From the NCBI GenBank assembly GCA_001795385.1, contig MGOU01000016.1, forward strand, positions 1 to 46,105: a stretch of 46,105 nucleotides of DNA, given 5' to 3'. The position numbers and the translations under genes were made by a program. A model generated the notes under the pieces. The model saw only the letters and a program-made list of their open reading frames with translations. It made no database searches and had not been told where the DNA came from. This DNA is from Clostridiales bacterium GWD2_32_19 (GTDB taxonomy: Bacteria > Bacillota > Clostridia > Lachnospirales > UBA12420). Positions 8,544 to 35,356 of this stretch are shown here, in pieces; position 1 is the stretch's first letter; the number at the start of each line of letters is the position of its first letter.

Positions 8544-8546
8544 CAG

Positions 8547-9935: not shown

Positions 9936-9975
9936 GGTAGTGTAAATTATATATAGTACTAAATATTACACTATC
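9936..9975. repeat. 40-bp near-palindrome, copy A
   Basis: It begins GGTAGTGT and ends ACACTATC, with AGTACT near the centre. It is 36/40 identical to copy B at 22532-22571. The 8-base TTTTTATC occurs directly on both sides, either a target duplication or coincidence. It lies between murF and the DUF1934 gene, 23 bp before the latter's start codon. Confidence 0.75.
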
Positions 9976-9978
9976 TTT

Positions 9979-11355: not shown

Positions 11356-11356
11356 G

Positions 11357-12400
11357 TTAGTCCCTTCTTTCAAGTGATAACTCTATCAATCTGTCTATCA
11401 GTTCGGTTTTGCTTATTCCTTCATGCTCCATTAGCATCGGATACATACTTATTGGTGTAAATCCAGGCAATGTGTTAATTTCATTGAAAACTACATCATT
11501 TGTACCTTTCTCAACAAAAAAGTCCAATCTTGATAACCCTTTGCAATCTAGTATTTTATATATTTCTTTTGTATATTCTCTAATCTTCTTTATAGTACTT
11601 TCTTCTAAATTTGTAGGTATTATAGCCTTTGAATCATCGCTTATATATTTAGTTTCATAATCATAAAACTCTGCATTATATGTTATTTCTCCGACAGTAC
11701 TAATTATTGGGTCTTCATTGCCTAATACAGCACATTCTACTTCTATTCCCTCTATTCCTTCTTCTATTAATACTTTTTCATCATATTTAAATGCAGTATT
11801 TATTCCTTCTATTAGCTCTTTTCTATTCTTTGCTTTTGATATTCCTATAGATGAACCACTATTTGCAGGTTTTATAAAGCAAGGATATCCTGTCTTTTTC
11901 TCAATGACTTCTAAATCATATGTATCTTTTACAACTATATATTTTGCTTGTGGTATATTTATTGTATTGACTATAATTTTAGTGAACGCTTTATCCATGC
12001 ATATAGCTGAACTTATCGTATTACATCCCACATATGGAATACCTGCGAGTTCTAGTAATCCTTGAATTTTTCCATCTTCTCCAGTGTTGCCATGTATTAT
12101 ATTGAAAACTACATCTATTTTAAATACCTTAGTTCCTTCATTTTCTAACACCAGTAAGCTTTTCGTGTTGTTTGGCAATATATATGCCTCTTTGCCTTCC
12201 TGTTCCCATGTTCCATCTTTCACTTTAGCTGAATTGTAGTTTTCACAAATCAACCACTTTCCTTCTTTAGTAATGCCTAATACAAAAATATTATATTTTC
12301 CTTTATCTATATTATCTAAAATCATCCCTGCGGAAGTTCTTGAAACCTCGTGCTCTGTCGATTTTCCTCCAAATACGATTAATAAATTCTTTTTAAGCAT
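11357..12400 (-). CDS. ddl: D-alanine--D-alanine ligase
   Basis: A 347-residue ATP-grasp ligase. N-terminal VFGGKSTEHEVSRTSAG, central IHGNTGEDGKIQGLLELAGIPYVG, ATP-grasp PCFIKPANSGSSIGISK, and C-terminal GLSRLDFF with FNEINTLPGFTPISMYP are all present. The omega-loop region contains YDYETKY, as in D-Ala-D-Ala enzymes rather than D-lactate ligases (family knowledge), so the normal dipeptide is expected. It feeds MurF, encoded directly downstream. Confidence 0.96.
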   Translation of the reverse strand: MLKKNLLIVFGGKSTEHEVSRTSAGMILDNIDKGKYNIFVLGITKEGKWLICENYNSAKVKDGTWEQEGKEAYILPNNTKSLLVLENEGTKVFKIDVVFNIIHGNTGEDGKIQGLLELAGIPYVGCNTISSAICMDKAFTKIIVNTINIPQAKYIVVKDTYDLEVIEKKTGYPCFIKPANSGSSIGISKAKNRKELIEGINTAFKYDEKVLIEEGIEGIEVECAVLGNEDPIISTVGEITYNAEFYDYETKYISDDSKAIIPTNLEESTIKKIREYTKEIYKILDCKGLSRLDFFVEKGTNDVVFNEINTLPGFTPISMYPMLMEHEGISKTELIDRLIELSLERRD

Positions 12401-12434
12401 TTACACATCTCCTTTAATAAATACATTGTAAGCA

Positions 12435-13784
12435 CTATCTACGAGCTACAAATTCTTTAAATTTTTCTCCTCTTTCTTTATAATCCTTAAAAGCTCCAAA
12501 ACTTGCAGAAGCAGGAGACATAAGACAAGTTTTACCTTTCTCTGTTACTTCCTTCGCTATACTTACTGCTTCTTCTAAACCATCAAGATATAGTACATTT
12601 TGATTCTCATTTCTATTATATGCCATGTCATATACTTTCTTGCCTGTATCGTATACACATAATATGTTCCTCACATTTGATTCTACTAAGAAATCTGCAA
12701 TCCCTTTGTAATCCACACCCTTGTCGTGTCCTCCAACTATCAGTGTATCTACATTCTTTAGTGCTTTAATTCCTTCCATAGTTGGCTCTGGTATTGTAGC
12801 TTGAGAATCATTATAAAATCTTATTTCACCATATGTGCCTACATATTCAAGTCTATGCGGTTCAGGCTTATAACTATATATACTGTTTTCTATATCATCA
12901 TTACTTATATTTAGCAACTTGCATGCTGCGATTACGGCCATCATGTTATATATATTATGGTCCCCTATTAGGTTACGCTTGTTATTTAAATTATAAACTT
13001 GCTCTCCATTATATGTAATATAGTCTTTCACGACACACACATCAGTACCTTCTGTATCCATTTGACTTATACTTATTTTTTTTGATTTTACATTTATATC
13101 AATAGCAAAACCATTTACAACATCATTATCTTTATTATATATAAATATATCCTTATCATTTTGATGCTTTACAATATTAAACTTAGCTTTTTGATAATTT
13201 TCAAGTGTTCCATGATTGCTTAAATGGTCTTTGAACATATTAAGCATTATTGCTATACGGGGAGAATTACAGATATATTCTAGTTGAAATGATGATAATT
13301 CGTATATAATCGTTGTATCTTTACCTATATTCTCTATCTGATCAAATGCTGGCACCCCGACATTTCCAACCAAAACAACATCTACACCCGCATTTTTAAG
13401 TATGTGCGTTATTAATGTTACTATTGTTGTTTTACCCTTAGTACCTGTAACACCTATTATATTTTTACTATACTGTTTTAAAAACATGTCTGTCTGTGAA
13501 GTTATATTTTCTATTTCGCTCGAATCTTCTAATATGATCCCTGGACTTTTGATTACCATGTCATAATCTTTCATGCATTTTAGATAATCTTCTCCTAAAT
13601 GAAGTGTTACCTTTTCATCATGCTTTATAAGCTCGTCATTTTTAATGCTTTCAACTTTATCTGCAACGCCTAAATGTATATCTTTTAATTCTTTCCTTAT
13701 AAAATTATATGTTGACTTTCCTTCTCTTCCAAAACCGAGTATAAGTATTTTTTTATTTTTCAATTCGTTATATATGTTATTCAT
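12435..13784 (-). CDS. murD: UDP-N-acetylmuramoyl-L-alanine--D-glutamate ligase
   Basis: A 449-residue Mur ligase that adds D-Glu to UDP-MurNAc-L-Ala. Domain 1 has ILILGFGREGKSTYNF and the conserved MVIKSPGI. The P-loop is IGVTGTKGKTTIV (about residues 109-121). ELSSFQLEYI and NMFKDHLSNHGT mark the catalytic region. C-terminal PHRLEYVG, NDSQATIPEPT and LIVGGHDKGVDY are MurD-type. The ATG at 13784 is preferred to one three codons upstream, because the latter abuts GGAGG with no spacing. It is followed by ddl and preceded by murI, which supplies its D-glutamate. Confidence 0.95.
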   Translation of the reverse strand: MNNIYNELKNKKILILGFGREGKSTYNFIRKELKDIHLGVADKVESIKNDELIKHDEKVTLHLGEDYLKCMKDYDMVIKSPGIILEDSSEIENITSQTDMFLKQYSKNIIGVTGTKGKTTIVTLITHILKNAGVDVVLVGNVGVPAFDQIENIGKDTTIIYELSSFQLEYICNSPRIAIMLNMFKDHLSNHGTLENYQKAKFNIVKHQNDKDIFIYNKDNDVVNGFAIDINVKSKKISISQMDTEGTDVCVVKDYITYNGEQVYNLNNKRNLIGDHNIYNMMAVIAACKLLNISNDDIENSIYSYKPEPHRLEYVGTYGEIRFYNDSQATIPEPTMEGIKALKNVDTLIVGGHDKGVDYKGIADFLVESNVRNILCVYDTGKKVYDMAYNRNENQNVLYLDGLEEAVSIAKEVTEKGKTCLMSPASASFGAFKDYKERGEKFKEFVARR

Positions 13785-13801
13785 TATTTTCATCCTCCCT
13801 A

Positions 13802-14602
13802 TTACTTTATATCCACATTTTCTTCTATCTTAATATTTATATCATCAAATAGGTTTTCAAAATACTTTTTATATCTCTCACATGAATCGCTAAAATATAA
13901 TTCCATGTTACCTCTGGTGTCGCTAGTGTTTTGTATTTTCTTTTCCATAATATCTTTTATCACATATTCAACTATTGGTATAGAAGTATTAATTATTTTG
14001 ATTTTATTATTAAAATATTTTTCAATGTTATCTTCCCATACCGTATAGTGTGTGCAGCCTAAAACTATTGCTTCCGGCTGTATTTCTTTATACTGGTACA
14101 AACTCCTTTCTATTGCATCCTCAACTATTACACCGTCTAGTAACCCTTGCTCAATAATAGGAACAAAGAGTGGACATGCTTTGGAATGAACTTGTATAGT
14201 TGTTGCTGCCTCTTTTACCTTTCTCTCATATATATTACTTTGTATCGTTGCACTTGTGGCTATCACGCCTATTTTATCAAATCCAGCTTTCTTGATATAT
14301 GCAATCGTTGGGTCTATTACATCAGCAACAGGCATTTGTGCGGTATCTTTTATTACATCAAGTGCAACTGAACTCATCGTATTGCACGCTATCACTATAT
14401 ATTTAACATCTTGCTTACATAGAAATCCTATTATTTGTTTAGCAAATTCTCTTATGTTTTCTTTAGATTTATCTCCATAAGGAACTCTTGCATTATCTCC
14501 AAAATATATTATATTCTCGTTTGGAAGTCTTTCTCTGAGAAGCTTTACAACCGTAAGTCCTCCTAGTCCTGAATCTATTACTGCCACTTTTTTGTTATTC
14601 AT
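13802..14602 (-). CDS. murI: Glutamate racemase
   Basis: A 266-residue cofactor-independent racemase that makes D-glutamate for MurD. Both catalytic cysteines are present: IVIACNTMSSVA (Cys near residue 73) and AIVLGCTHYTVW (Cys near residue 185). The N-terminal AVIDSGLGGLTVVK and YFGDNARVPYGDKS complete the signature. The ATG at 14602 follows TTAGGAG. Its first eight bases overlap the end of the upstream O-antigen-ligase-like gene, indicating coupled translation. Confidence 0.95.
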   Translation of the reverse strand: MNNKKVAVIDSGLGGLTVVKLLRERLPNENIIYFGDNARVPYGDKSKENIREFAKQIIGFLCKQDVKYIVIACNTMSSVALDVIKDTAQMPVADVIDPTIAYIKKAGFDKIGVIATSATIQSNIYERKVKEAATTIQVHSKACPLFVPIIEQGLLDGVIVEDAIERSLYQYKEIQPEAIVLGCTHYTVWEDNIEKYFNNKIKIINTSIPIVEYVIKDIMEKKIQNTSDTRGNMELYFSDSCERYKKYFENLFDDINIKIEENVDIK

Positions 14603-21584: not shown

Positions 21585-22508
21585 TTAGTATTTTATTAAT
21601 AATCCGTTTATATGTAATCCTGCTGCTGTTCCAATAAGCAGAACATTATCCCCTCTTTTTATTATGTTGTTATCAATCGCATGTTTTAACGCAAATGGCA
21701 CAGAAGCCGAAACCATATTTCCATAATCGTTAACTATATTAAGATATGTACCCTTTTTAAGACCTACCTTTTTAAGTATAATATCAAGAAGTTTACTAGC
21801 TTGGTGAGGAATAATATAATCTACTTTTTCATTAACATTTTCATAAAATTCCTCTAAAAATTGTGGTAATTTTTTCATTGCTAGTTTTGCTACATTAATA
21901 CCTTGCATATCAAACATATATTGCTCTTTATTCTCTTCTGAATATTTACACGGAGGCAAACTAGTACCCCCACCAGCTACTTGTGTTTGATGTGCTCCCT
22001 CGGACCATGTTTTCTGCAATCCGTAAATAACACCTACCTTGCTTGTTTCATCTTTTGCCACAACTATAGCTACAGCAGCATCACTAAAAAGCTCATAGCT
22101 TTCCCTTTGATTTTTGTTTAATCCGAGTGACGGAACATCACTTGCTACAATTAGTACTTTATTGTATCTACCCGCATCTATCATATATGACATTATATCA
22201 AGTGCAGCTATAAAGCTTGTACATGTTGTATTAATATCAACGCAAGGTATATCTAAACCCTGTGCAATATGTTCATGTATCAAAGAAGACATGTTTGGAA
22301 TCGGTTGTATAGTTACTGCAGAACATGACACAATGCAGTCAATATCCTTTATATCGAGTTCTGAATTTTTTAATGCTTCCCCTATTGCAGAAACTGCCAG
22401 ATGCAGCTGTGTTTCATCTCCGGTTATTCTATACCTAATATCATTATCAAAACTTACGGTTTCCTTTGGAAGGTAAGACCCCATACCTAAAATGCGAATA
22501 TTTCTCAT
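21585..22508 (-). CDS. KAS III / OleA-like beta-ketoacyl synthase
   Basis: A 307-residue thiolase-fold condensing enzyme with a complete Cys-His-Asn triad: Cys96 in DINTTCTSF, His235 in IIPHQASK and Asn264 in NDYGNMVSASVPF. FabH proteins are usually 315-325 residues. This one lacks the segment that normally carries the DTSDEWI-type motif after residue 25, so it is probably not the housekeeping FabH. A role in condensing acyl thioesters in a dedicated pathway fits its operon. Copy B of the 40-bp palindrome lies 23 bp before the start. It is the last gene of the five-gene cluster. Confidence 0.82.
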   Translation of the reverse strand: MRNIRILGMGSYLPKETVSFDNDIRYRITGDETQLHLAVSAIGEALKNSELDIKDIDCIVSCSAVTIQPIPNMSSLIHEHIAQGLDIPCVDINTTCTSFIAALDIMSYMIDAGRYNKVLIVASDVPSLGLNKNQRESYELFSDAAVAIVVAKDETSKVGVIYGLQKTWSEGAHQTQVAGGGTSLPPCKYSEENKEQYMFDMQGINVAKLAMKKLPQFLEEFYENVNEKVDYIIPHQASKLLDIILKKVGLKKGTYLNIVNDYGNMVSASVPFALKHAIDNNIIKRGDNVLLIGTAAGLHINGLLIKY

Positions 22509-22531
22509 GTTTTTTCCCCCTTACTTATCTA

Positions 22532-22571
22532 GGTAGTGTCAAATATTTATAGTACTAAATACTACACTATC
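22532..22571. repeat. 40-bp near-palindrome, copy B
   Basis: 36/40 identical to copy A (9936-9975), in the same orientation. The end arms are GGTAGTGT and ACACTATC, with a TAGTACTA core. It lies in the gap between the glycosyltransferase and KAS III genes, exactly 23 bp before the KAS III start codon. Confidence 0.75.
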
Positions 22572-22629
22572 CTTTATATTCAATATATTTTATTGTCTTT
22601 TTACAAATCTATTTCTTTAACAGCCCCCA

Positions 22630-23781
22630 TTATAACGTTTTGTTATATTCTAGTTTTTCACCTTGAATCGTTATACTGTTTTTTCGCCATTGTATTTTAT
22701 TAGGACTTATTAGTGAATGTATGTAGTGTATAGGTTGTACATAATCAGAAATCATTTCAAATAAAGGTGCGAAAATATTTTCTCTTGAATTTAGATACTT
22801 CTTTCTAGTAACCAAATTTATTATGCTTTTTAAATAATGTATAGTCACAAATATAAAAATATATTTAAGTCCCAGTCCTATAGCAACTGTTAGTAACATT
22901 AATGGCATAATTGATGGAAATACTACTAGAATAATTAACAATGGGTGTATATTATCTTTTAAATATTTATTTGCAAAAATCATCCATCTTTTCATTAGAC
23001 TACAATAATGTCTAATCCCGCTAATTGTAGTCCCCACCCTGCACGGAACCGTATGTTGAATTGTTTTAATCTTATTTTTTAACATTAATTTTGCAATTTC
23101 ATATTCATCACAAAGCTTATCCTCTATTACCGAAAAAACTTCGTACTCTTTCATTAATTCAGTTTTAGCAAAATAGCACATTCCGTTAATCGTATTATTT
23201 AAACCCAGCTTCGACATCGGTAAATATGTAAGTAACGAGTTTCCATTTACAAATCCCGTCACCAATCTAGAAAGTATACCATTATAGTTTGAATAATATG
23301 GTGTACCAGTTACTATGCAGTTTTCTGCGTCAAGTAACTCTTTTATTTTTGGAAGTGTACTAAAATCTATAATTGAATCATCATCTAAGGCAATCATATA
23401 CTTTTTACAATATTTAAGTCCTAATTTTTGCTTATATACTTTTGCATTTAGATTTTTAGGAATCTCATCACATACTATTATTGTTATATCTCTCATACTA
23501 ATACTCTTAATTTCATTTACTATTTCTCTTGCTTCATTATCATTGTAATCAATAATCCAAACAAAATTTATATCTTTACTCTTTCTAATATTCTCATTTA
23601 AATCATTCTTAAAGTTACGATCTCCAGAAACAATCGGTTGAATTACTGTAAACTCACTAAACGAACAATCGCTACTTGATAAGTTGTTTTTCATTTCACT
23701 TTGATAACTCATCATTAGATAAATTCTAATTGTATATATCGATATATAAATAACCAATAAAATTATAAATATAATACTCAC
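22630..23781 (-). CDS. Ceramide-glucosyltransferase-like (GT21/HpnI-like) membrane glycosyltransferase
   Basis: A 383-residue protein with an N-terminal membrane helix (about residues 2-24), a GT-A domain, and C-terminal membrane segments near residues 280-320. The metal-binding ALDDDS (133-136), the acidic IEDKLCDEYEIA (219-230) and KRW (264-266) match the D1/D2/D3/(Q/R)xxRW pattern of ceramide glucosyltransferase relatives such as HpnI. In that family a sugar nucleotide is transferred to a lipid hydroxyl. It is flanked by lipid-type enzymes, so a lipid acceptor made by the cluster is a reasonable inference. The true donor is unknown. Confidence 0.8.
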   Translation of the reverse strand: MSIIFIILLVIYISIYTIRIYLMMSYQSEMKNNLSSSDCSFSEFTVIQPIVSGDRNFKNDLNENIRKSKDINFVWIIDYNDNEAREIVNEIKSISMRDITIIVCDEIPKNLNAKVYKQKLGLKYCKKYMIALDDDSIIDFSTLPKIKELLDAENCIVTGTPYYSNYNGILSRLVTGFVNGNSLLTYLPMSKLGLNNTINGMCYFAKTELMKEYEVFSVIEDKLCDEYEIAKLMLKNKIKTIQHTVPCRVGTTISGIRHYCSLMKRWMIFANKYLKDNIHPLLIILVVFPSIMPLMLLTVAIGLGLKYIFIFVTIHYLKSIINLVTRKKYLNSRENIFAPLFEMISDYVQPIHYIHSLISPNKIQWRKNSITIQGEKLEYNKTL

Positions 23782-23846
23782 ATTCCCACCCTACCTTAAA
23801 ATTTATTTTAATTCGATTGCTACCACTCTAAGCTATAATAAATTCT

Positions 23847-25154
23847 CTATATTTTAAATTTGCGTTCTACCCGTCTTAACTTCTTACCACTTTCCACTCT
23901 AATACTTTCAAAGTTTATCTGTGACAGCTCAAAATTCATCATCTTCGATAGTTTATAAAACTCATTTTTAATATTTATTTTCACACTTTCATCAGCTTTT
24001 TCAACTTCATTAATTTGAATCTCTATTTTATTTACTGCTAGTTGGATAACCCTGTATTCAGTAATATCACTTGCATATAAAATGCATCTTCGAATGAAGT
24101 CTGGATACACTGTCACAAATTCATCTGAATCCTCATTTTTAAATATAAAACTATCATCTTCCCTACCCTCTATCTTGTCTATCGCCATATACACAGAGCC
24201 ACACATGCATTTTTCCTGCTTATCCACCAATATATCATTTAATCTATATCTTATAATAGGTTGTGTTTTTCTAGTAAAGTCTGTTATTATTGGGATAAAT
24301 CTATTTTTATCGATATACTCTTTTTCTATCTTTACTATGTCTTCGTTTATATGTAGTGTTCCACACTCACAAGTATAAGCTAGAAATCCCTCTGTGCATT
24401 GATATACCTGATGTATTATTTCCTTTTTAAATGCCTTTTTAATTTTCTCCTCATCAGTTTTTTCTAATACCTCAGCAACAGATATAATTTTCTCTGGTAT
24501 TACTTTGAGTAATCCGCTAGTCCTCAAGTCAGACAATTTTATTAAAACTTGTGGTGGAGCAATTAGAATATCTGGCATAAACTCATTCAACCTATCTATG
24601 TAATCATCGATTTTAATCATCATATCAAAAAAGTTAAATTCTATATTTTTAGACTTAACAGATTGATACAGGTTACTATCCGCTCTCATAAAAAACGCTA
24701 TCTTATACTTTGATGAGATTCCCTTTGGCAGCATTTTTGCAAACATTGCACCTGCCCATACACTTTTCTCAGCATCACTTGCCAAAAATAATCCTCGATG
24801 TCCCGAGGTCCCTGACGATAAACCTACAGTTATTCCTTTCAGCTTTTCTTGGAACTCTCGGCTTTTCTCTGAAGAAATTGCTAGTTCAAAAGCCTTCTCT
24901 TTGTTTACACCTAGCGTATTAAGTTCATTAAAGTTATCCATCATTATTTGCTTGTTTATTATAGGCATCTTGTTTAACTCTTCAAGATTATATCCTTTAT
25001 ACAGATTTTTATAAAATTCAGATTTACCTACTACATATCTCAAGTGTTGCATAATCCTTTTATTTTGATACTTTTCTAGCTTTTGCCTATCCTTAAATTT
25101 TAAAAGATACTTGTATTTAATGTAGCTTTTCAATATTAAAATCTTCTCTAGCAT
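23847..25154 (-). CDS. F390-synthetase/PaaK-like adenylate-forming enzyme
   Basis: A 435-residue member of the phenylacetate-CoA-ligase/coenzyme-F390-synthetase-related branch. The phosphate-binding loop is GLSSGTSGHRG (about residues 111-121). A YQCTEG motif followed by a Cys-rich TCECG and a later MCG suggests a metal-binding site, and RKTQPIIRYRLNDIL precedes the C-terminal lobe. It probably activates a carboxylate as an acyl-adenylate. The ATG at 25154 follows GGAGG and overlaps the end of the upstream metallo-hydrolase gene by 38 bases. It may replace OleC, a different adenylate-forming enzyme, in the cluster. Confidence 0.82.
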   Translation of the reverse strand: MLEKILILKSYIKYKYLLKFKDRQKLEKYQNKRIMQHLRYVVGKSEFYKNLYKGYNLEELNKMPIINKQIMMDNFNELNTLGVNKEKAFELAISSEKSREFQEKLKGITVGLSSGTSGHRGLFLASDAEKSVWAGAMFAKMLPKGISSKYKIAFFMRADSNLYQSVKSKNIEFNFFDMMIKIDDYIDRLNEFMPDILIAPPQVLIKLSDLRTSGLLKVIPEKIISVAEVLEKTDEEKIKKAFKKEIIHQVYQCTEGFLAYTCECGTLHINEDIVKIEKEYIDKNRFIPIITDFTRKTQPIIRYRLNDILVDKQEKCMCGSVYMAIDKIEGREDDSFIFKNEDSDEFVTVYPDFIRRCILYASDITEYRVIQLAVNKIEIQINEVEKADESVKINIKNEFYKLSKMMNFELSQINFESIRVESGKKLRRVERKFKI

Positions 25155-25950
25155 ACTTTTGCACCTCCTCATCTGTAACTATCTCGTGGCTAGCAATTAA
25201 CTTTATCTCCGTATTTGATGCCAAATAATCCTTTAAATACTTTTGGGTGTTTACATAATTATTATAGCTACTTTGAATCATCCTAGCTATCAATTTTAGC
25301 TTTATATCCTGATTTATCTCATCTTCTCTCCAATAAGAATCTGCAACGAAAAATAAGTTTCCTCTTTTTAGTAACATTCCCAACTGTCCCTTAGAATGTC
25401 CCCTTAGATTAACCAAAATTATCTCACCATCATCAAACAGGTCGTAGCCCTCTAAATAATCACTCACTTTCAGTCTTGTATGAGTATCTTCGACTACATC
25501 TATTCTCCCTTCTATATTTTTAGGAATCATATTTTTAAAAATCAATGAATGTATTGTACTACACTTTAGTTCTTCAAAATTTCCCTTACTCGTAACAATT
25601 TTAGCATTATTAAAATAATTTAACCCACCGATATGGTCAGGGTGAAAGTGAGACATGACTACATAAGAAATATCCTCACACTTTACATTGATTTTACTCA
25701 GTTTATTTTTTATATTATCTTTTTCATCTATAAATGTTGGATTTAGTACATTGTACACTCTACCAATCAATCCACTCTTATATATCAGCTCCGAATATCC
25801 AGTATCAAACAATATCCACCCTTCGGTCGAATGTTCAATAATCACACAGTTTGCAGGAAAATTTACTTTCTCTTTTCTATATCCTTCATATACTTTGCTT
25901 AAATCATTCACACAGTAACCACATTCCGTTATATACACTTTTTTAATCAT
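25117..25950 (-). CDS. Lactonase-like metallo-beta-lactamase-fold hydrolase
   Basis: A 277-residue MBL-fold protein with the metal motif SHFHPDHIGG (His101, His103, Asp105, His106), the GHSKGQLG third-histidine motif, ADSYW, and a final ASHE. Its length and GHSxGQ motif resemble AHL-lactonase-type enzymes. Lactone or thioester hydrolysis is therefore plausible. The start overlaps the end of the reductase gene by 8 bases, and its 3' end overlaps the adenylating-enzyme gene. It could act on an activated or lactonised intermediate; this is an inference. Confidence 0.83.
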   Translation of the reverse strand: MIKKVYITECGYCVNDLSKVYEGYRKEKVNFPANCVIIEHSTEGWILFDTGYSELIYKSGLIGRVYNVLNPTFIDEKDNIKNKLSKINVKCEDISYVVMSHFHPDHIGGLNYFNNAKIVTSKGNFEELKCSTIHSLIFKNMIPKNIEGRIDVVEDTHTRLKVSDYLEGYDLFDDGEIILVNLRGHSKGQLGMLLKRGNLFFVADSYWREDEINQDIKLKLIARMIQSSYNNYVNTQKYLKDYLASNTEIKLIASHEIVTDEEVQKYAREDFNIEKLH

Positions 25951-26935
25951 TGTTTTCTCTCCACCATTTCGAGTAAATTTTCAAACCTTCTTTTATCGTG
26001 TATATTGGTTTATATCCTAATAACTTCTTTGCTTTTTCTATATCCAATGTTTGGCTGTTTCCTATTGTGCATACTGTATACCTAGTTAGAATCGGTTCTT
26101 TTTCTATGTTAAGTACTCTATACACTTTTTCTAATATAGTTGCTATACTATAAGCCACCCTAAAATTCACATTTTTATACTTAGGTTTTATATTTAACTC
26201 TGCAAATAGCATATCCAAAATCTCTTTAAATTTAATACTTTCATCATTTGTAATATTAAATATCTCCCCACTGATGTTTTCTTTAATCACGCTCAAGAAT
26301 ATAGCTTCTACAACATTTTCAACATAAGTTATATCTACCAGCTGCTCTCCATCACTCATAAGTGGTATCCCCGTTTTCCCATTCACATTGATCAATCTTG
26401 GTATAATACTAGTATCTCCAACTCCAAATATCCCTCTTGGTCTAATTACTACTGTGTACAAACCTTCTTCATTAGCCTTTTTAACCTCTTCTTCAGCCAA
26501 TAATTTAGTAGCTATGTAGTTATTGAGTTTGTTGTTCTTCGGTACTTCATTTTCTTTTATTTTAAATTTATCCTTCCCTTCAGTATATATACTCGGAGAA
26601 GACACAAACACTAGCCTTTCTACCCCATTTTGCATGCACGCATTTATTATATTTTTTGTTCCTATAACATTGGCTTCATAAAATTTTCTATACTCTCCCC
26701 ACACAGTAGATAATGCACCAGCATGAACCACAAAGTCAACACCCTTACACACTTCCACTAGTTTGCTTTCATCTGTCAAATCAACCTTAATAAATTCTAT
26801 ATTATTAGAACTTATTTCTTTACCTGCTTTCTCATTCCTTCCAATAGCTTTCACACAAAAGCCTTCTTTCTCAAATCTTTTCACTAAATATTTACCCAAA
26901 AAGCCAGTTGCCCCCGTTACCAGTATTGTTTTCAT
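25943..26935 (-). CDS. NAD(P)-dependent 3-beta-HSD/OleD-like reductase
   Basis: A 330-residue extended short-chain dehydrogenase. Nucleotide-binding TGATGFLG is at residues 7-14, and the catalytic Tyr140-x3-Lys144 lies in NNYIATKLLAEE. IRPRGIFGVGDTSIIPRLI (about residues 165-183) is characteristic of the 3-beta-HSD/OleD group, which reduces 2-alkyl-3-ketoacids. It is the first gene of the cluster, with a promoter at 26989-27017. It supports a condense-then-reduce pathway with the KAS III-like gene, but sugar epimerases share this fold and cannot be excluded. Confidence 0.82.
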   Translation of the reverse strand: MKTILVTGATGFLGKYLVKRFEKEGFCVKAIGRNEKAGKEISSNNIEFIKVDLTDESKLVEVCKGVDFVVHAGALSTVWGEYRKFYEANVIGTKNIINACMQNGVERLVFVSSPSIYTEGKDKFKIKENEVPKNNKLNNYIATKLLAEEEVKKANEEGLYTVVIRPRGIFGVGDTSIIPRLINVNGKTGIPLMSDGEQLVDITYVENVVEAIFLSVIKENISGEIFNITNDESIKFKEILDMLFAELNIKPKYKNVNFRVAYSIATILEKVYRVLNIEKEPILTRYTVCTIGNSQTLDIEKAKKLLGYKPIYTIKEGLKIYSKWWRENND

Positions 26936-26988: not shown

Positions 26989-27017
26989 ATTTTATAACAT
27001 TTTAATAATATTATCAA
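26989..27017 (-). promoter_or_regulatory. Sigma-A promoter of the lipid-like cluster
   Basis: Minus-strand -35 TTGATA (27017-27012), a 17-base spacer and -10 TAAAAT (26994-26989), 53 bases before the reductase start codon. Confidence 0.6.
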
Positions 27018-27262: not shown

Positions 27263-30200
27263 TTACATTCCGACTCTTTCTTTCTTTCTAGCCTTCCTAT
27301 ATACCTCAGGTCTCATCAGTGTCATCATATAACTCATAAAATTCTCGTCATTGAACATCTTAACAAAGAACTCTTCGTTCTTTTCATATCTTTGGACTGC
27401 GATATCCTTAAATCGTTGTTCAAAGATGAATTTGAAGGTTGCTTCATCATTATTTTTCGCGAAACTTGCTAATGTTTCATCTTGAACCAAGTCTTCTTGC
27501 ATTTGCATCATTACTTTATCTTGATCACCAAAGCTTGTCCCGAATTTTTCATTTATTTTTTCTAGAATGATTGAAAGCGGATCTCTCTTTTCTTTTTTGC
27601 CGCCTATTCCACCTGATATCGGCTTTACTCCTTCTTCGTTTTCCCCTAGTTCTATGCTGCCCTCAAAGTCTTTCTCTAGCCTATAGTATTCGAGTAGCAA
27701 TTCATTATCGAGCATAAGTGTTTCCCTATTATCCTTAGGCAAAAGCTTATTTAGCAATTTAGCATATACAAAGAATCGCTGTAGTTCGGTATCAAACATT
27801 CTACAAATTTGTGTTACAAATGAATATGTACGTATAAATGTTCCAAGTGTTGATTTAAATTCATTTCTTTCTGCATCTGTTTTTGCCTTGTATCTATCAA
27901 CTGCAGGTTTCAAGAATGTAGTCAGTTTTCCCACATTACTCGCACTTTCGCTACCACTGTAAAACACATTTACAAACCCATCTATTTCCGTTTGTTGATA
28001 TATTTTGAAGTCATTTAAGCCATTCTTTAATGTATAAATTACATTAGGATTAGTCTCTTCTCCTAATATTGTAGCATCATAAAACGGTTCAAATGATTTC
28101 TTTATGTCTTCTGCACTATTAACAAAGTCTAGCACAAATGTATCTTCTTTACCGTCACACATTCTATTTATACGTGATAATGTTTGCACAGCTTTCACAT
28201 CGTAAAGCTTTTTATCCACAAACATTGTATGAAGTAGTGGCTCGTCAAATCCAGTTTGATACTTTTCCGCAACTATAAGCATGTTGAAATCATCTGTCTT
28301 AAAATACTCTTTAAGTTGAGATTCCTTAATGGTATTACCAATATTATCTTTATTAATTTTTTCTTCTGTCCAGTCGTTGCCATCGTCATCTACCGTACCC
28401 GAAAATGCTACTAAAACATCTAAATCTTTGTACCCTTTTTCTTTTATGTATCTTCTAAACTCAAATAAATATCTAACCGCGTGCAACCTAGAGCCTGTTA
28501 CCACCATTGCTTTGGCTTTTCCACCTATTTTTTTCTTTGTTACTTCCCTAAATTGCTCTACTATTATAGCAGTTTTTTGTGCTAGGTTATGTGGATGTAG
28601 TGATTCAAATTTTGTTATAGCTTTTACCCCTTGTGAGGCATCTAATTCTGGGTCTTCGGCAATTGACTTTGCTATCTTATAATACATATTATAAGTAGTA
28701 TAATTTTGCAGGACATCAAGAATGAACCCTTCTTCTATGGCTTGTCTCATAGAGTATATATGAAAGGCTTGGTACTTTCCGTCTGGCTGTCTTTCTCCAA
28801 ACATTTGAAGTGTTTTAGCTTTAGGTGTTGCTGTAAATGCGAAGAACGATAGATTCTTTTGTAACCCGTGCGTTGCAAGTTCATTTAGCATTTTATCCTC
28901 ATCATCAACAAACTCAGCCTCGGCTTTGCCTTCCATTCGTGCGTATTCTTCAAGTATATCTTTCGTATCCGCTAGAGCTATCTTCAGCTTTTTAGCTGCT
29001 TCACCTGTTTGTGATGAGTGGGCTTCGTCAACTATCACTGCAAAGTTTTTATTTGTACCGGTCACCTCTTTATATATCACGGGGAACTTTTGCAGTGTTG
29101 TTATGATTATTGCTTTTCCTGAGTTTATAGCATCTTTTAGCTGCGCAGATTTCTTGTCTATCTTCTCTACTACTCCCAGTTTATGATCAAACTGATATAT
29201 GGTGTCCTGAAGTTGGCTATCTAGTACTTTTCTGTCTGTTATTACAATTACCGAGTTAAATATCTTTTCATCACTCGCGTTGTGAAGTCCCGAGAGCCTG
29301 TGTGCAAGCCAAGCAATAGAGTTTGACTTTCCAGAGCCAGCAGAGTGTTGTATAAGATAATTCTTACCACTGCCATTTTCTTTTACATCATTTAGAAGTT
29401 TACTCACAACATCAAGTTGATGATATCTAGGAAATATGATTTTTTCTTTTTTTACATTTCTTCCGTCTTTATCTTTCTCTTCTTTAACTTCAAGATGTAT
29501 ATACTTATTTAGTATTTCAAGTAGTATGTCTTTATTAAGCACATTTTTCCATAAGTATGACGTGTCATAGTCATCCTCTATATTTGGATTTCCTGCTCTA
29601 CCTATATTACCAGCACCACCCGAACCTTGGTTAAATGGCAAGAACCTAGTTGCTGCTCCCATTAGCTTTGTAGTCATATAGACTTCACTGATGTCAACCA
29701 CAAAGTGCACCAAAGCACGATTTCTAAATTCAAATATTGGTTCATTTGGATTGCGGTCGTACATATATTGTTTCTTACCATTTTCAACTGACTGTCCTGT
29801 AAACTGATTTTTTAGTTCTAGTGTTACTATCGGGATGCCATTTACAAACAAAGCCATGTCCAAGCTATTTTCATTTTTTACAGAATAGTGAAGCTGTCTT
29901 ACACATGTTAATATGTTTTCGTTGTATAGTCTTGTGGTATCTTCATTTATACCATTTTCAGGTTTGAAATATACCACACGAAAGCTTATACCTCTATCTT
30001 TAAATCCAACACGAAAAACATTTATAAGCCCCCTTTGCTTTACCTCTTTGCAAAACGTGGTTATAAATGCTTTGTGGCTTTCACTACCGTATACAACTTG
30101 ATATCTTTCCCATTCTTTCGGTTGGGTGTTTTCTATAAATGTAAATAAAGTGTGTGTTTCTAGAGCGAGTGCTCTGTCGAACGAGTTATCCCCGCCCTTA

Positions 30201-30268
30201 ATGTATCCACCTTTAGTGATTAGATAGTCTTCAATCGCATCTTCTAGCCTTTTTTCCCTAACATCCAT
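27263..30268 (-). CDS. hsdR: Type I restriction enzyme, HsdR (endonuclease/translocase) subunit
   Basis: A 1001-residue R subunit. The N-terminal nuclease domain has a PD-(D/E)xK site (DMALFVNGIPIVTLELKN, Asp138 and Glu151-x-Lys153). It is followed by a superfamily-2 translocase with Walker A HSAGSGKS (308-315), DEAH box VIVDEAHSS (412-419), and motif VI-type QTLSRINR. It cuts DNA at a distance after ATP-driven translocation when guided by HsdM/HsdS. It is last in the operon, 119 bases after the Shedu-like gene. That gap contains a 7-bp hairpin (30315-30333). The frame is intact, so the system could be functional. Confidence 0.94.
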   Translation of the reverse strand: MDVREKRLEDAIEDYLITKGGYIKGGDNSFDRALALETHTLFTFIENTQPKEWERYQVVYGSESHKAFITTFCKEVKQRGLINVFRVGFKDRGISFRVVYFKPENGINEDTTRLYNENILTCVRQLHYSVKNENSLDMALFVNGIPIVTLELKNQFTGQSVENGKKQYMYDRNPNEPIFEFRNRALVHFVVDISEVYMTTKLMGAATRFLPFNQGSGGAGNIGRAGNPNIEDDYDTSYLWKNVLNKDILLEILNKYIHLEVKEEKDKDGRNVKKEKIIFPRYHQLDVVSKLLNDVKENGSGKNYLIQHSAGSGKSNSIAWLAHRLSGLHNASDEKIFNSVIVITDRKVLDSQLQDTIYQFDHKLGVVEKIDKKSAQLKDAINSGKAIIITTLQKFPVIYKEVTGTNKNFAVIVDEAHSSQTGEAAKKLKIALADTKDILEEYARMEGKAEAEFVDDEDKMLNELATHGLQKNLSFFAFTATPKAKTLQMFGERQPDGKYQAFHIYSMRQAIEEGFILDVLQNYTTYNMYYKIAKSIAEDPELDASQGVKAITKFESLHPHNLAQKTAIIVEQFREVTKKKIGGKAKAMVVTGSRLHAVRYLFEFRRYIKEKGYKDLDVLVAFSGTVDDDGNDWTEEKINKDNIGNTIKESQLKEYFKTDDFNMLIVAEKYQTGFDEPLLHTMFVDKKLYDVKAVQTLSRINRMCDGKEDTFVLDFVNSAEDIKKSFEPFYDATILGEETNPNVIYTLKNGLNDFKIYQQTEIDGFVNVFYSGSESASNVGKLTTFLKPAVDRYKAKTDAERNEFKSTLGTFIRTYSFVTQICRMFDTELQRFFVYAKLLNKLLPKDNRETLMLDNELLLEYYRLEKDFEGSIELGENEEGVKPISGGIGGKKEKRDPLSIILEKINEKFGTSFGDQDKVMMQMQEDLVQDETLASFAKNNDEATFKFIFEQRFKDIAVQRYEKNEEFFVKMFNDENFMSYMMTLMRPEVYRKARKKERVGM

Positions 30269-30387
30269 CTACCTTCACCTCTGTCTTTAGTATTTTTTGT
30301 TTTCATTTATATTTCTCCAACTACTGGTTGGAGTTTTAAATATTCTTTATATATTTGAAGTATATTATATAATAATTACTATCACAA

Positions 30388-31338
30388 CTAATAAGTTGCT
30401 TTTCCAATTATATTTAAAGCACTGTCATATAAATTGTCATAATGTAATATACATAGTTTTTCATTGTCTTTATGTCTTCGTTTAATCCTATATGTATTCT
30501 CGTCAAAGTCCTCTCTTCTACCCGCAACTACGACATAATGAATTCTACTCTTGTCATAATTTATAAAACACTCAGGTAATAATTGGTTTGGATGTTTATC
30601 CTTTGTAAACTGCTCCTTTAATGATGTAAAATTTGAATCTAACCAGCACTCCCAATCATGCACCTGCTTTATTCCTTTCCTAAATGACCCACCTAACTCA
30701 CCACATTTTATTGTGATATTTTTTTTCGGGTCCTCAAGTTCTACAAAAACAAACTCATATCCTCCAGAACTTCTTCCAATAATTAAATAATCAACTTTCC
30801 ACGAAGTTCCTAACATAAATTCAGGAAATACAAAAGTATCATGATGTCCAAAATTATAATTTTCCTCTAATATAGAGCCAATTATGAAATATGATTTAGT
30901 ATCTCTTATATGGTTTAGAATTATCTGTTCTGTGATTTTATCTTGACTTAATAATTTTAGAAATTCACTCGATTTTATTTTTAATTCTTCTGTATTAGCA
31001 AGTTCTACAATATCTAGTAAGTTATTAGGGAAAAGACTTATATAGTGTCTGGCTGACTTGGGATATTCCGAGTATTTATTAACTCTTCCTATTAAAGTCT
31101 TTCCATCTTTTTTTCGCTTCTCATTTTCTAAAATCTTCGAATATATTTCTATATCTTCTTTTGACATTGCTCTATAATCTACATCATAAAGTTTCACATG
31201 ATCCCCCCAAATATTTTTTGATAAGTATAATCTTAAGTAATTGCATGTTAAATATTTCTTTAAAACCATTGGTGAGAGAAAATTCATTATCAATATTTCT
31301 GCAACCTCTAGTCGCAGTTTTTTCATTACTAGGAACAA
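30388..31338 (-). CDS. Shedu (SduA/DUF4263)-like nuclease embedded in the type I operon
   Basis: A 316-residue protein. The C-terminal half carries the Shedu-type nuclease pattern: SWKVDYLIIGRSSGG (Asp183), FVFVELEDPKK (Glu200-Leu-Glu202) and FRKGIKQVHDWECWL (Gln225, Asp228). This is a D-...-ExE/ExK and Q arrangement typical of DUF4263 proteins. The N-terminal 165 residues contain no domain I recognise. SduA proteins confer phage resistance in Bacillus (established family). The start is uncertain: TTG at 31338 or ATG at 31326. The gene lies 15 bases after hsdS, so it should be co-expressed with the restriction system. Confidence 0.72.
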   Translation of the reverse strand: MFLVMKKLRLEVAEILIMNFLSPMVLKKYLTCNYLRLYLSKNIWGDHVKLYDVDYRAMSKEDIEIYSKILENEKRKKDGKTLIGRVNKYSEYPKSARHYISLFPNNLLDIVELANTEELKIKSSEFLKLLSQDKITEQIILNHIRDTKSYFIIGSILEENYNFGHHDTFVFPEFMLGTSWKVDYLIIGRSSGGYEFVFVELEDPKKNITIKCGELGGSFRKGIKQVHDWECWLDSNFTSLKEQFTKDKHPNQLLPECFINYDKSRIHYVVVAGRREDFDENTYRIKRRHKDNEKLCILHYDNLYDSALNIIGKATY

Positions 31339-31353
31339 AGTAATCTCTCTTTT

Positions 31354-32613
31354 TTACTTTATCTCTATTTTACCTGTAACCGCTTCATATATTAATGATT
31401 TTTTATATGTTTCTAGTTTTTCTATAAGTTTTTGCTTTTGTACTAGTATTTTATCTATTTTGTTGCATTTATTATCTAGGTAGTCAGCTATTACTTGTTG
31501 TTCCTCCGACTTTGGTAATGGTACTACTGCATCTGAAAAGTCATTGCCACTTAAACCGTATCTCGTCATTCCATTCGCTCTATAACAAAACCAATTTCTT
31601 AAGTAAAATGCTCCAAATAAGTATTTTTCATATTCTAAACACATTTTTATATTAGGCCTAAATCTCATTAAGTGATAACCAAATAATGTATTGGGCAAAG
31701 TATCTTTTATGACTGTGCAATGGCCAATGTCATTCGGGGTTTCTGAAGAATTAGTGAATAGAACATCACCTTTTTCAAGATTACAACATTTAGCTTTATT
31801 TACATTAGCTGAAACAATAAGATATTCTTCGCTATCATAAATTTCTTTAATACTATTTCTATACACATCCATGTAATGAATAGATTTGTATAAAGGTTCT
31901 TCTACCTGTATCTTCTTATCTACACCATTAGATGATAATTCCCCCATAAACTTCATTTTTCTTACTTCCCACCACTCAGGTATCTCCCCTATCCACTCTA
32001 TCCCACTATCTTTCATCCTCGCAGTTTTATCCAAGCCCTTAGTTACTGCCTCAGTAATAAGCGATTGCTTGTATGACTTGAGTTTTTCTATAACTGCATT
32101 TTGTTTTTCTATTGTGGTGTCTATTTTAATGCATTTTTCATCTAGGTAATCACTTATAATTTGTTGTTCTGCTGTCTTTCCAAAAGCTATAGGAAAATTC
32201 ATCAGCATTGGCAATCGTATTGAATCCACAGTTGATTTTGCATTTCCTTTCTCTATTTCTTTACAAAAATTTTCCGCCATGTAATAATATAAATACTTTC
32301 CAAGTATATTTTTAAATTTATGAACATTATATACTCTTTGGTGATAGTCAAATTTCCCATTTATATAATGAAAAACTTTTCCTGCTCCTACTCCATCTCC
32401 TGCAATTAATATAGCCTCACCATCGTAGGAATATGTGGAAATTCGTTCAACAATAGGTGACCGCACATAAAATGGATATTCTCCCTCTTTTTCAGCATTT
32501 ATCGCATCTTTATCCCCTGTATTTATATCACATAAAAATCTTAGCCTTGCTATCTCCCAATCCTCAGGTATCTCCCCTATCCATTCTATCCCGCTATCTT
32601 TCATCCTCCTCAT
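31354..32613 (-). CDS. hsdS: Type I restriction enzyme, HsdS (specificity) subunit
   Basis: A 419-residue S subunit with two target-recognition halves. Each begins with MKDSGIEWIGEIPE (residues 4 and 200) and ends with a conserved helical spacer (EQQIISDYLDEKC..., EQQVIADYLDNKC...). The two variable regions differ, so a bipartite target is expected. The start ATG overlaps the rhuM stop (ATGA). The 45-bp coding repeat at 31976-32020 and 32564-32608 gives a recombination site for exchanging recognition domains. Confidence 0.93.
   Translation of the reverse strand: MRRMKDSGIEWIGEIPEDWEIARLRFLCDINTGDKDAINAEKEGEYPFYVRSPIVERISTYSYDGEAILIAGDGVGAGKVFHYINGKFDYHQRVYNVHKFKNILGKYLYYYMAENFCKEIEKGNAKSTVDSIRLPMLMNFPIAFGKTAEQQIISDYLDEKCIKIDTTIEKQNAVIEKLKSYKQSLITEAVTKGLDKTARMKDSGIEWIGEIPEWWEVRKMKFMGELSSNGVDKKIQVEEPLYKSIHYMDVYRNSIKEIYDSEEYLIVSANVNKAKCCNLEKGDVLFTNSSETPNDIGHCTVIKDTLPNTLFGYHLMRFRPNIKMCLEYEKYLFGAFYLRNWFCYRANGMTRYGLSGNDFSDAVVPLPKSEEQQVIADYLDNKCNKIDKILVQKQKLIEKLETYKKSLIYEAVTGKIEIK
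31976..32020. repeat. 45-bp direct repeat in hsdS, second copy
   Basis: 43/45 identical to 32564-32608. It encodes the start of the second specificity half (around residues 200-213). Confidence 0.85.
32564..32608. repeat. 45-bp direct repeat in hsdS, first copy
   Basis: Encodes the start of the first specificity half (around residues 2-18). It is 43/45 identical and in the same orientation as 31976-32020, 588 bp apart. Confidence 0.85.
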
Positions 32614-33632
32614 TTACCCACACCACCGTTCTTACCAAGCATCTTCACAGTTTTATCTATACTCTCCAGAAAGTGTTTTTCCACTTCCGACAGTTCATCT
32701 TTAGTCTTTTCTTTATATTTCTCATACTCTTCATTTGCTTTTCTCATTGCCTCTTCATGCGATATCTTTCCTGCATGTTCAAGCACCTCTCTACCTGATA
32801 CTTTTATGAAATCATCTAGCTTTGTTATCCAGTCAACCATGTACATAGGCTTTCTACTTTTTGCTTGTAGCTCTGCAAACTCTAGGTACATATTCACTAT
32901 TCTGTTTAGTGTGTCTACTTCATCTTCGGTAAGATAATTTTTCGCTGTCTTTATGTCTGACTTCTTCGGCATTTCGCCTGTCCATGAGGTCAGCCCTACA
33001 AATGGCTTGTCTGCATTTACTCTACTATATATAACCTCAGCTGCTGTCTCCCCATGAGCTGAAAAGTGCATTTTGTTTTGTACTGTTGCAAAAAATGTCT
33101 GAGTAGTCTTTGATCTAGGGTCGTAGTCTACACTAGTTGCATATATCTCCAAGACTTTACTGTAAAATACCTTTTCGCTGGAGCGAATATCTCGTATACG
33201 TGCTAAAAGTTCATCGAAATATTTACCTCCACCTGCTTTTTTAAGCAAGTCATCATTCATTGTAAAACCTTTTATTATGTACTCTTTTAGTCTCTCAGTC
33301 GCCCATATTCTAAATTGTGTACCACGAAGTGACTTTACACGATAACCTACTGATATTATTACGTCAAGACTGTAAGTTTTAGTACTTCTCTTTACCTCTC
33401 TATTACCTTCATTTTGAACTTGTAAGTATTCCTTACAAGTTGAATTTTCTATCAATTCACCTTCATTATAAAGGTTCTTTATGTGCATCGTTATATTTTG
33501 TGTACTTGTCTGAAATAACTCAGCCATTTGCGCCTGAGTCAGCCAAACCGTCTCATTTTCAAGCTTTACATCTATCTTCGTCTGCCCATCCACTGTATTA
33601 TATATTAGCATTTCCGTATTATTTTCAATCAT
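32610..33632 (-). CDS. RhuM-family protein
   Basis: A 340-residue protein with the RhuM signatures: ENETVWLTQAQMAELFQTSTQNITMHIKNLY (a winged-helix/HTH-like N-terminus, about residues 25-55), SLDVIISVGYRVKS, and RGTQFRIWATERLKEYIIKGF. The C-terminal region contains helical, coiled-coil-like segments. RhuM genes are frequent companions of type I restriction loci. The molecular role is unknown; the name derives from a Salmonella pathogenicity island gene. ATGA overlaps on both sides (hsdM before, hsdS after) show tight translational coupling. Confidence 0.88.
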   Translation of the reverse strand: MIENNTEMLIYNTVDGQTKIDVKLENETVWLTQAQMAELFQTSTQNITMHIKNLYNEGELIENSTCKEYLQVQNEGNREVKRSTKTYSLDVIISVGYRVKSLRGTQFRIWATERLKEYIIKGFTMNDDLLKKAGGGKYFDELLARIRDIRSSEKVFYSKVLEIYATSVDYDPRSKTTQTFFATVQNKMHFSAHGETAAEVIYSRVNADKPFVGLTSWTGEMPKKSDIKTAKNYLTEDEVDTLNRIVNMYLEFAELQAKSRKPMYMVDWITKLDDFIKVSGREVLEHAGKISHEEAMRKANEEYEKYKEKTKDELSEVEKHFLESIDKTVKMLGKNGGVGK

Positions 33633-35356
33633 TCGCCAAATACCTCCTTGAGTGTACCCTCAAGTTCAGCCTCTATATCCATGATTTCTTTCATTAAATC
33701 CATACTTGCTTGAGGTTTAGTGTATTTGTAGAAATGTCTAGTAAATGGTATTTCATACCCTACTTTAGTTTTACTTTCATCTATCCAAGCATCTGGTGCA
33801 AAAGGCAACACTTCTCTCTTGAAGTATTGCTTTATATCATCCGTCATTGGTACACTCTCTGTATCTCTTAAGCTTGTATCTGGCTGAGCTTTTTTGTTTT
33901 TAAGAATCTCTTTCCCATTCTCGTCCTTCATTGGTCTTTCTACAGTAATTTTATAATATCCAAAGTCCTCGTTATTAAATACTTTGCTCACATCATTTTG
34001 AGCAAAGTCACCATATATTTTAGTTATCTCTTCAATATATTTTGTAGGTATGTCATTTCTCTTATTTCCGAGCGACTTCCTTCTTTTTTCATACATATTA
34101 TTTGCATTTATTAGCTGTATCTTCCCTTTTCTATGCGCCGCCTTCTTATTAGAAAGCACCCATATATAGGTAGCAATACCTGTATTATAAAACAAATCAT
34201 TGGGCAAAGCTATTATAGCCTCAAGTAAATCATTTTCTATTATGTGTTTTCTTATGTCAGATGGCCCTGATCCAGCGTCTCCAGTAAATAGTGGCGAACC
34301 ATTATGTATTATAGCGATGCGACTTCCACCATCTTTTATATCCTTCATTTTAGATAGTGCCGTAAGCAAAAATAACATTTGCCCGTCCCCAATAGCAGGA
34401 ATCCCTGGCCCAAATCTACCCGCAAATCCTAGTTTTGCCTCTTTATCTATTGCGGCCTTATCATTTTTCCACTCACGCCCAAAAGGTGGATTTGATAATA
34501 TATAATCGAACTTATTTTCTTTAAATTCATCATTTGAAAGGGTGTTACCGTTTTTGATATAGTCTGCATTTGCACCTTTTATTAAAATATCTGATTTACA
34601 TATTGCATAAGTCTGATCATTTATTTCTTGTCCAAAGCACAGCAATTTAGCATTTGCATTTACTCTCTTTAAATATTCTTCGGCAACTGTCAACATACCG
34701 CCTGTCCCACATGCTGGGTCATAAATAGTCTTAGCAACTTGATTACCTGCAAGCAGTTTACCATCCTCAGTAAACAAGATATTAACCATAAGCTCTATAA
34801 CTTCTCTCGGAGTGTAATGTTGTCCCGCATCTTCGTTGTGAGATTCAGAAAACTTCCTGATTATCTCTTCGAACACATATCCCATCTCAAGATTAGATAT
34901 CTTATCAGGGTGCAAATCAGCATTAGGTGATGTAAACTCTTGAATAACTATATACAATAAATTCTTCTCGGCAAGTCTGGCAAGTTGTACATCGAAATTA
35001 AACTTTTCTATTATACCTCTAACATCTTCCGAAAATCCATTCAAATAGTTCTTAAAGTTAGCCTCTATATTATCAGGGGCTTCAAGAATCTTCTTAAATG
35101 TAAACTTACTCGTATTATAAAAAGAATACCCCGACACCTTCTTCAGAAGTTCATGTTTCATAGGCATATTTTTCAGTTCTTCGTTCTTTGCTACTACAGC
35201 ATCCTTTGTGGCTTCAAGTATGCAGTCAAATCTCCTAATAACCGTAAGAGGAAGTATCGCCTCCCCATACTCATGTGGCTTATACACCCCTGTCAATTTA
35301 TCCGCTATCGCCCATATCAGGTTAGCCTTTTCATTTATATTCGCTGTTAAACTCAT
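33629..35356 (-). CDS. hsdM: Type I restriction enzyme, HsdM (N6-adenine methyltransferase) subunit
   Basis: A 575-residue M subunit. The N-terminal helical HsdM_N region covers about residues 8-140. SAM-binding motif I, YDPACGTGGML, is at 212-222, and catalytic NPPFG is at 289-293. It transfers methyl groups to adenine in the sequence read by HsdS, protecting host DNA and forming the M2S core. It is the first gene of the operon. AAAGGAG precedes the ATG. No convincing promoter was found in the 275-base gap upstream (35357-35631). Confidence 0.95.
   Translation of the reverse strand: MSLTANINEKANLIWAIADKLTGVYKPHEYGEAILPLTVIRRFDCILEATKDAVVAKNEELKNMPMKHELLKKVSGYSFYNTSKFTFKKILEAPDNIEANFKNYLNGFSEDVRGIIEKFNFDVQLARLAEKNLLYIVIQEFTSPNADLHPDKISNLEMGYVFEEIIRKFSESHNEDAGQHYTPREVIELMVNILFTEDGKLLAGNQVAKTIYDPACGTGGMLTVAEEYLKRVNANAKLLCFGQEINDQTYAICKSDILIKGANADYIKNGNTLSNDEFKENKFDYILSNPPFGREWKNDKAAIDKEAKLGFAGRFGPGIPAIGDGQMLFLLTALSKMKDIKDGGSRIAIIHNGSPLFTGDAGSGPSDIRKHIIENDLLEAIIALPNDLFYNTGIATYIWVLSNKKAAHRKGKIQLINANNMYEKRRKSLGNKRNDIPTKYIEEITKIYGDFAQNDVSKVFNNEDFGYYKITVERPMKDENGKEILKNKKAQPDTSLRDTESVPMTDDIKQYFKREVLPFAPDAWIDESKTKVGYEIPFTRHFYKYTKPQASMDLMKEIMDIEAELEGTLKEVFGE

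Follow-up and report, generated by a model that had tools for sequence, protein, structure and literature searches.

A mobile four-enzyme cassette with a MxnB/CorB-clade ketosynthase and an exchangeable tailoring gene: a possible lipid or ketide pathway in Clostridiales bacterium GWD2_32_19

Introduction

Contig MGOU01000016.1 of Clostridiales bacterium GWD2_32_19 (assembly GCA_001795385.1) carries five adjoining genes at positions 21,585 to 26,935, and the question they raise is whether they make up one biosynthetic pathway and, if so, of which kind. They encode a short-chain dehydrogenase/reductase (SDR), a metallo-beta-lactamase-fold (MBL) hydrolase, an adenylate-forming enzyme (adenylase), a membrane glycosyltransferase (GT) and a ketoacyl synthase III (KAS III, here KAS). 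The whole stretch of 46,105 nucleotides that was analysed is referred to as the window. An earlier note had read the five genes as a co-conserved, OleABCD-like cluster with an OleA-like condensing enzyme and an added ceramide-glucosyltransferase-like enzyme; the five same-strand open reading frames were found where it had placed them, and with the families it had named. We report here that the SDR, MBL, adenylase and KAS genes are a true biosynthetic unit and that the fifth gene occupies an exchangeable tailoring slot. We put at about even odds (roughly 0.5) that the five genes form a dedicated, horizontally moving lipid or ketide pathway of four core enzymes and an exchangeable tailoring enzyme, here the membrane GT.

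Results and Discussion

Recurrence of four core genes across bacteria

Scans for relatives covered bacterial genome contigs, a phylum sample of 398 genomes, a gammaproteobacterial sample, plasmids and Escherichia coli. SDR, MBL, adenylase and KAS genes were all recovered at 21 loci in Clostridia, Bacilli, Fusobacterium and alpha-, beta- and gammaproteobacteria. Genes of the adenylase family TIGR02304 are scattered over lineages, and KAS, SDR and MBL genes adjoin them at nearly every well-covered locus. The hosts on the Firmicute and Fusobacterium side were Bacilli, Aerococcaceae, Ruminococcaceae, other Clostridia, Lysinibacillus, Pontibacillus, Paenibacillus and Fusobacterium, and the proteobacterial hosts were Haemophilus, Providencia, E. 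coli, Pseudomonas, Paraburkholderia, Burkholderia, Rhizobium, Paracoccus and Ketogulonicigenium. Among the 398 phylum genomes, the seven strongest KAS matches all fell within the nine TIGR02304-positive genomes (hypergeometric probability 1e-13). Additionally, the pairwise distance matrices of the four core genes were correlated (r 0.66-0.83), with none of 2000 Mantel permutations (0/2000) as high for any pair, and part of this correlation may come from kinship of the host species.

The catalytic residues of the core enzymes are invariant: the Tyr and Lys of the SDR and all seven zinc ligands of the MBL in 21/21 loci, Lys431 and Glu261 of the adenylase in 22/22 proteins, and the Cys-His-Asn triad in 22/22 cluster KAS proteins, including the window KAS, whose triad is intact as had been noted earlier. 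The possibility that the genes are unrelated, neighbours by chance or leftovers of an island, draws on the variability of this region between genus-mates and on the defence island beside it, both described below. Because the four families recur at 21 loci over phyla with invariant catalytic residues, and their co-occurrence has a probability of ~1e-13, the four core genes are a unit rather than a chance assemblage; no decay was seen in them. A chance neighbourhood is refuted for the four core genes, and we give it next to no credence.

A related cassette was found in 672 of the 5426 complete E. coli genomes (~12%), including JJ1887 and the uropathogenic CFT073; in 671 of them 80% or more of the query is present. 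It adjoins narGHJI, and between narI and the tyrT/purU region the order is KAS-SDR-MBL-adenylase-PAP2-fatty acid hydroxylase-desaturase; RefSeq names no pathway for these genes. The enterobacterial cassettes examined lie at 7149-14030 of locus L024 and 1501-8382 of locus L030. A TetR regulator adjoins the cassette at some loci.

An exchangeable tailoring slot

Co-conservation, which the earlier note had proposed for all five families, held for the four core genes and failed for the GT, whose slot is filled at other loci by unrelated glycosyltransferases or by other tailoring enzymes. GT21-type enzymes occupy it in the window and in Fusobacterium (L029), and GT1-type enzymes (macrolide/UDPGT family) in Aerococcaceae, Ruminococcaceae and L032 (GT1 loci L006, L008, L009 and L032). 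ATP-grasp and GNAT genes are found there in Bacillales, Haemophilus, Paraburkholderia and Rhizobium (the Paenibacillus ATP-grasp protein scored 364 bits against PRK06849, cut-off 406), a set of PAP2, FA_hydroxylase and FA_desaturase genes in E. coli and Providencia, and elsewhere a divergently transcribed sulfotransferase. Within the six-locus subclade of the window KAS, five loci have a GT beside the core and the sixth has ATP-grasp and GNAT genes.

The window GT matched Pfam Glyco_transf_21 at 60.5 bits (gathering cut-off 21.7), and its proposed likeness to ceramide glucosyltransferases held at this level and not beyond it. The window and Fusobacterium proteins read LMKRW (LxxRW) instead of (Q/R)xxRW, which we take to be the defining motif of GT21 ceramide glucosyltransferases. 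A PDB sequence search with the window GT found nothing, and in a collection of 72,556 plasmid records the GT of the Fusobacterium cluster was its sole relative. The PAP2, hydroxylase and desaturase genes of enterobacteria, together with the membrane GT of the window, favour a lipid as the product of the cassette.

Clade and active site of the ketosynthase

The resemblance of the KAS to OleA did not survive comparison with solved proteins, amongst which its closest relatives were MxnB (145 bits) and CorB (136), followed by the best FabH (97) and OleA (~40); matches to OleA models and structures by sequence were weak. In a 42-row tree, 25 cluster KAS proteins and MxnB/CorB, the ketosynthases of the myxopyronin and corallopyronin pathways, formed one set (support 98/96) with OleA outside it and FabH-type proteins apart (97/95), and the placement of MxnB/CorB inside versus beside the cluster clade had a support of 66/68. 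At the site of Glu117, the essential catalytic base of OleA at its dimer interface, all 25 cluster KAS proteins read Gln-x-[IL]-Pro, with Ile70 in the window protein, and MxnB/CorB read Gln-x-Val-Pro; two reference OleA proteins have LEPS at this site. No FabH or OleA row of the alignment has the Gln-x-hydrophobic-Pro combination, and the window KAS also shares Cys-x-Ser-Phe and Pro-His-Gln-x-Ser with MxnB/CorB-type ketosynthases. Judged by these sequence features, the window KAS has the clade placement and the active-site signature of the MxnB/CorB type.

The published work on these enzymes bears on the same site. Of the OleA proteins aligned in one study, two lack Glu117-Pro and the rest have it (PMC7064751). 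MxnB and CorB link two chains without the glutamate of OleA and PpyS (PMC4578411, PMC5724707); they have Val94 at the glutamate site, and the suggestion was made that this base is dispensable when the nucleophile is a beta-ketoacyl group (PMC4578411).

The window KAS was also considered as the housekeeping FabH, an identity rejected by the tree split and by a separate FabH elsewhere in the genome, on contig C10 (377 bits); the earlier note had named as grounds for refutation a KAS that groups with FabH and is the sole FabH of the genome, and neither was the case. Against the FabH model TIGR00747 it scored 149-153 bits, below the 292 needed, and against PRK07204 292 bits, below a cut-off of 402 that some other cluster KAS proteins pass. 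The subclade of the window KAS (six loci, 100/100) is without ~25 N-terminal residues present in FabH. In FabH these residues sit at the coenzyme A (CoA) pocket, at the CoA adenine, and their loss may mean that this subclade uses substrates bound to acyl carrier protein (ACP).

Reductase, hydrolase and adenylase

The five proteins fall into the families 3Beta_HSD (SDR), Lactamase_B (MBL), TIGR02304 (adenylase), Glyco_transf_21 (GT) and ACP_syn_III (KAS). OleD is the nearest named family of the SDR, as had been claimed, with 235 bits to the OleD model (below its cut-off of 580) and 148 to the next non-OleD family. In one genome the cluster SDR scored 242 bits to OleD and the next SDR 66, and in a tree the cluster SDRs adjoin OleD among the sampled SDRs with modest support (83/89 and 81/58). 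The nearest relatives of the MBL are the AiiA and GcL lactonases and 4-pyridoxolactonase. Its dinuclear site (HxHxDH + His + Asp + His) is complete, and it scored below the cut-off of every named lactonase family (best 73 bits, 325 needed).

The adenylase is a clear member of TIGR02304 (547 bits, cut-off 252) that keeps the P-loop, Thr260-Glu261 and Lys431, the last being the candidate catalytic lysine; Cys268, His274, Cys322 and Cys324 look like a putative zinc site. Its structure model matched PaaK-type natural-product ligases (NatL2, AjiA1 and ClxA), fold neighbours with 13-18% identity to it, of which the solved ones listed bind aryl acids. A tblastn comparison of the adenylase and the MBL with two genuine ole loci gave no match at E <= 1. 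The OleABCD likeness was accordingly not borne out for these two enzymes: the adenylase is of the PaaK branch, and BLAST showed no similarity between it and OleC or between the MBL and OleB. Cassette members match the NCBI families TIGR02304, NF005541 (PRK07204) and NF005315 (PRK06849), and the names of these families give no pathway.

Proposed pathway and its alternatives

In the proposed pathway, the product of the four core enzymes would be a hydroxylated acyl compound, probably with a long chain. The adenylase would activate a carboxylic acid with ATP and transfer it to the thiol of CoA or ACP, or at a later stage to the acceptor, and the KAS would take one acyl group onto Cys96 and form a carbon-carbon bond with a second thioester (beta-ketoacyl or malonyl) in the manner of MxnB/CorB. 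Since the glutamate base of the OleA type is absent, this second thioester would need an already acidic alpha-carbon. The OleD-like SDR could then turn the new 3-keto group into a 3-hydroxyl, the MBL could free the product by hydrolysis of the thioester or of a derived lactone, and the GT could place a sugar on the hydroxyl or carboxyl at the membrane. Substrates, step order and product are those we infer from the enzyme families.

Several observations weigh against this pathway. The structure model of the KAS gave Z values of 35.4 to MxnB, 35.2 to CorB, 35.0 to FabH and 33.3 to OleA, and because MxnB and FabH are unseparated a simple FabH-like reaction is possible. Although the KAS shares with MxnB and CorB a clade, the Cys-His-Asn triad and Gln-x-hydrophobic-Pro, and finds its best PDB sequence matches there, the cluster KAS proteins are ~28-30% identical to these two, which share a long separate branch, and the window subclade is shorter at the N-terminus. 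No ACP or polyketide synthase (PKS) gene, and no modular PKS or carrier protein, lies near the window cassette, where the partners are instead an SDR, an MBL and a PaaK-type ligase. Furthermore, a TIGR02304 gene stands without the other three in an archaeal metagenome-assembled genome (L013), on a Pseudomonas megaplasmid (L027, 7905-9203) and at two weak matches (L036, L037), and another Pseudomonas megaplasmid has the MBL-adenylase pair only (L091, 6950-8212). The megaplasmid adenylases, alone or with the MBL only, suggest that this enzyme can act in contexts other than the full cassette.

The FabH-like reaction would have the KAS condense malonyl-ACP decarboxylatively onto an unusual primer that the adenylase would make, so that a modified fatty acid enters membrane lipids, with the SDR as ketoreductase and the MBL as thioesterase. 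The decarboxylating type of the triad, the 153-165 bits of the window KAS against FabH models, the tie of the structure model and the fatty-acid hydroxylase and desaturase of the enterobacterial loci fit this scheme; it is at odds with the separate housekeeping FabH, the firm tree split, the FabH score below cut-off and a KAS subclade lacking the N-terminal element of FabH, and we consider it rather unlikely. An OleABCD-type route, with the KAS as OleA, the SDR as OleD, the adenylase as a substitute for OleC that forms a beta-lactone and the MBL as a substitute for OleB or a lactonase, would yield a glycosylated beta-lactone or olefin. The two systems have in common a condensing enzyme, a reductase nearest OleD both by family and among the sampled SDRs, a hydrolase, here with lactonases as relatives, and an adenylase of the ANL superfamily, to which OleC also belongs. 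A described cluster of OleA, glycosyltransferase, OleC, P450 and OleD (PMC7064751) is a precedent for a GT in such a setting. Membership in OleABCD was nevertheless rejected, since Gln-x-Ile-Pro replaces Glu117-Pro, the KAS lies outside the OleA clade, and the adenylase, which matches PaaK-type ligases, and the MBL have no relatives in the two ole loci compared; we hold this route to be improbable.

The product might also be a signal molecule, a diffusible pyrone, ketone or lactone made by the adenylase and the KAS, with the MBL acting as a PqsE-like thioesterase or tuning the level of the signal. The Pseudomonas quinolone signal (PQS) is made by the same enzyme classes, a ligase, a KAS III and an MBL (PqsA, PqsD and PqsE), to which the cassette adds a conserved SDR, its ligase being of the PaaK type and its KAS of another clade. 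Photopyrones and the products of CorB and MxnB are alpha-pyrones (PMC4578411), and the TetR regulator adjoining some loci would suit a signal. However, no dedicated receptor or regulator is common to the loci or was seen in the window, and the reductase, the GT and the membrane fatty-acid enzymes point to a lipid, which makes a signal doubtful in our view.

Locus layout and genomic setting

The coordinates of the five genes and of other features in the window are listed in Table 1. The first three genes overlap, as had been described earlier, the SDR and MBL genes by 8 bases and the MBL and adenylase genes by 56 bases with the start of the adenylase as listed; spacers of +65 and +121 bases separate the adenylase from the GT gene and the GT from the KAS gene, respectively. 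The true start of the adenylase is probably the internal Met7 (base 25154), with the ribosome site AGGAGGTG just upstream, and the overlap would then be 38 bases rather than 56. A promoter scan gave matches across the region not much above those in shuffled sequence and nothing specific to the cluster, and an Rfam scan of the window likewise gave nothing specific to the five genes.

Table 1. Features of the window discussed in the text (positions on the 46,105-nucleotide stretch).
Feature	Position	Strand	Details
SDR, extended, OleD-like; core gene	25943-26935	-	GATGFLG cofactor motif at residue 8; Tyr140-x3-Lys144
MBL-fold zinc hydrolase, lactonase-like; core gene	25117-25950	-	ligands His101/His103/Asp105/His106/His185/Asp204/His255
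Adenylate-forming enzyme, TIGR02304 'F390 synthetase-related', PaaK branch of ANL superfamily; core gene	23847-25172	-	
Membrane glycosyltransferase, Glyco_transf_21 type; tailoring slot	22630-23781	-	GTG start; DDD at 133-135
KAS III-type ketosynthase, MxnB/CorB-containing clade; core gene	21585-22508	-	Cys96-His235-Asn264; Gln68-x-Ile70-Pro71
Promoter-like site upstream of SDR gene	26989-27017	-	TTGATA-17-TAAAAT, consensus match only
S10-Clostridia ribosomal protein leader RNA	4015-4094		58.9 bits, gathering 35.1
SpoVA-type sporulation genes SpoVAE, SpoVAD, SpoVAC	4587-6576		by eye
Type I restriction-modification locus (R, S, M)	27263-35356		
Shedu-like SduA_C/DUF4263 protein	30388-31338		between type I subunit genes
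RhuM-family protein	32610-33632		between type I subunit genes
NERD+UvrD helicase protein	37189-39060		
AbiEii-type nucleotidyltransferase	44917-46080		

The cassette lies in a region that is variable between genus-mates, beside a defence island. In a class sample of 391 genomes, no TIGR02304 match over the cut-off came up in the two genus-mates or in the remaining genomes. Both genus-mates keep the beta-propeller gene that neighbours the cassette, at 82-85% protein identity; in one of them (G002) other genes lie between it and the gene orthologous to that at 41.4 kb of the window, and in the other (G001) the contig ends soon past it. The same stretch of the window holds the cassette and a group of type I restriction, Shedu-like, RhuM-like and NERD-UvrD genes. 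The NERD+UvrD and AbiEii-type genes are consistent with a defence island adjoining the cassette. Farther off, the window contains a ribosomal protein leader RNA and sporulation genes, amongst them SpoVAD, a thiolase-fold protein unrelated to the cassette finding.

Conclusions

The enzyme classes of this cassette are known, and their combination is neither OleABCD nor FabH. Searches of the open-access literature turned up no paper about the cassette, and since most subscription journals lay outside them, a prior characterisation is possible. We tentatively suggest, as something short of an even chance, that the cassette makes an undescribed class of bacterial lipids, in which a mobile set of four enzymes with a chain-joining MxnB/CorB-clade ketosynthase outside any PKS would be combined with lineage-specific tailoring by a sugar, an amide, hydroxylation and desaturation or perhaps sulfate. 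The families involved carry placeholder names, even though four intact enzymes keep moving together between distant bacteria. If the product is indeed a new lipid or signal, several orphan families would gain a function at once, a role of a chain-joining ketosynthase outside polyketide assembly lines would be shown, and the annotations 'FabH', 'F390 synthetase' and 'lactonase' at cassette loci would be corrected.

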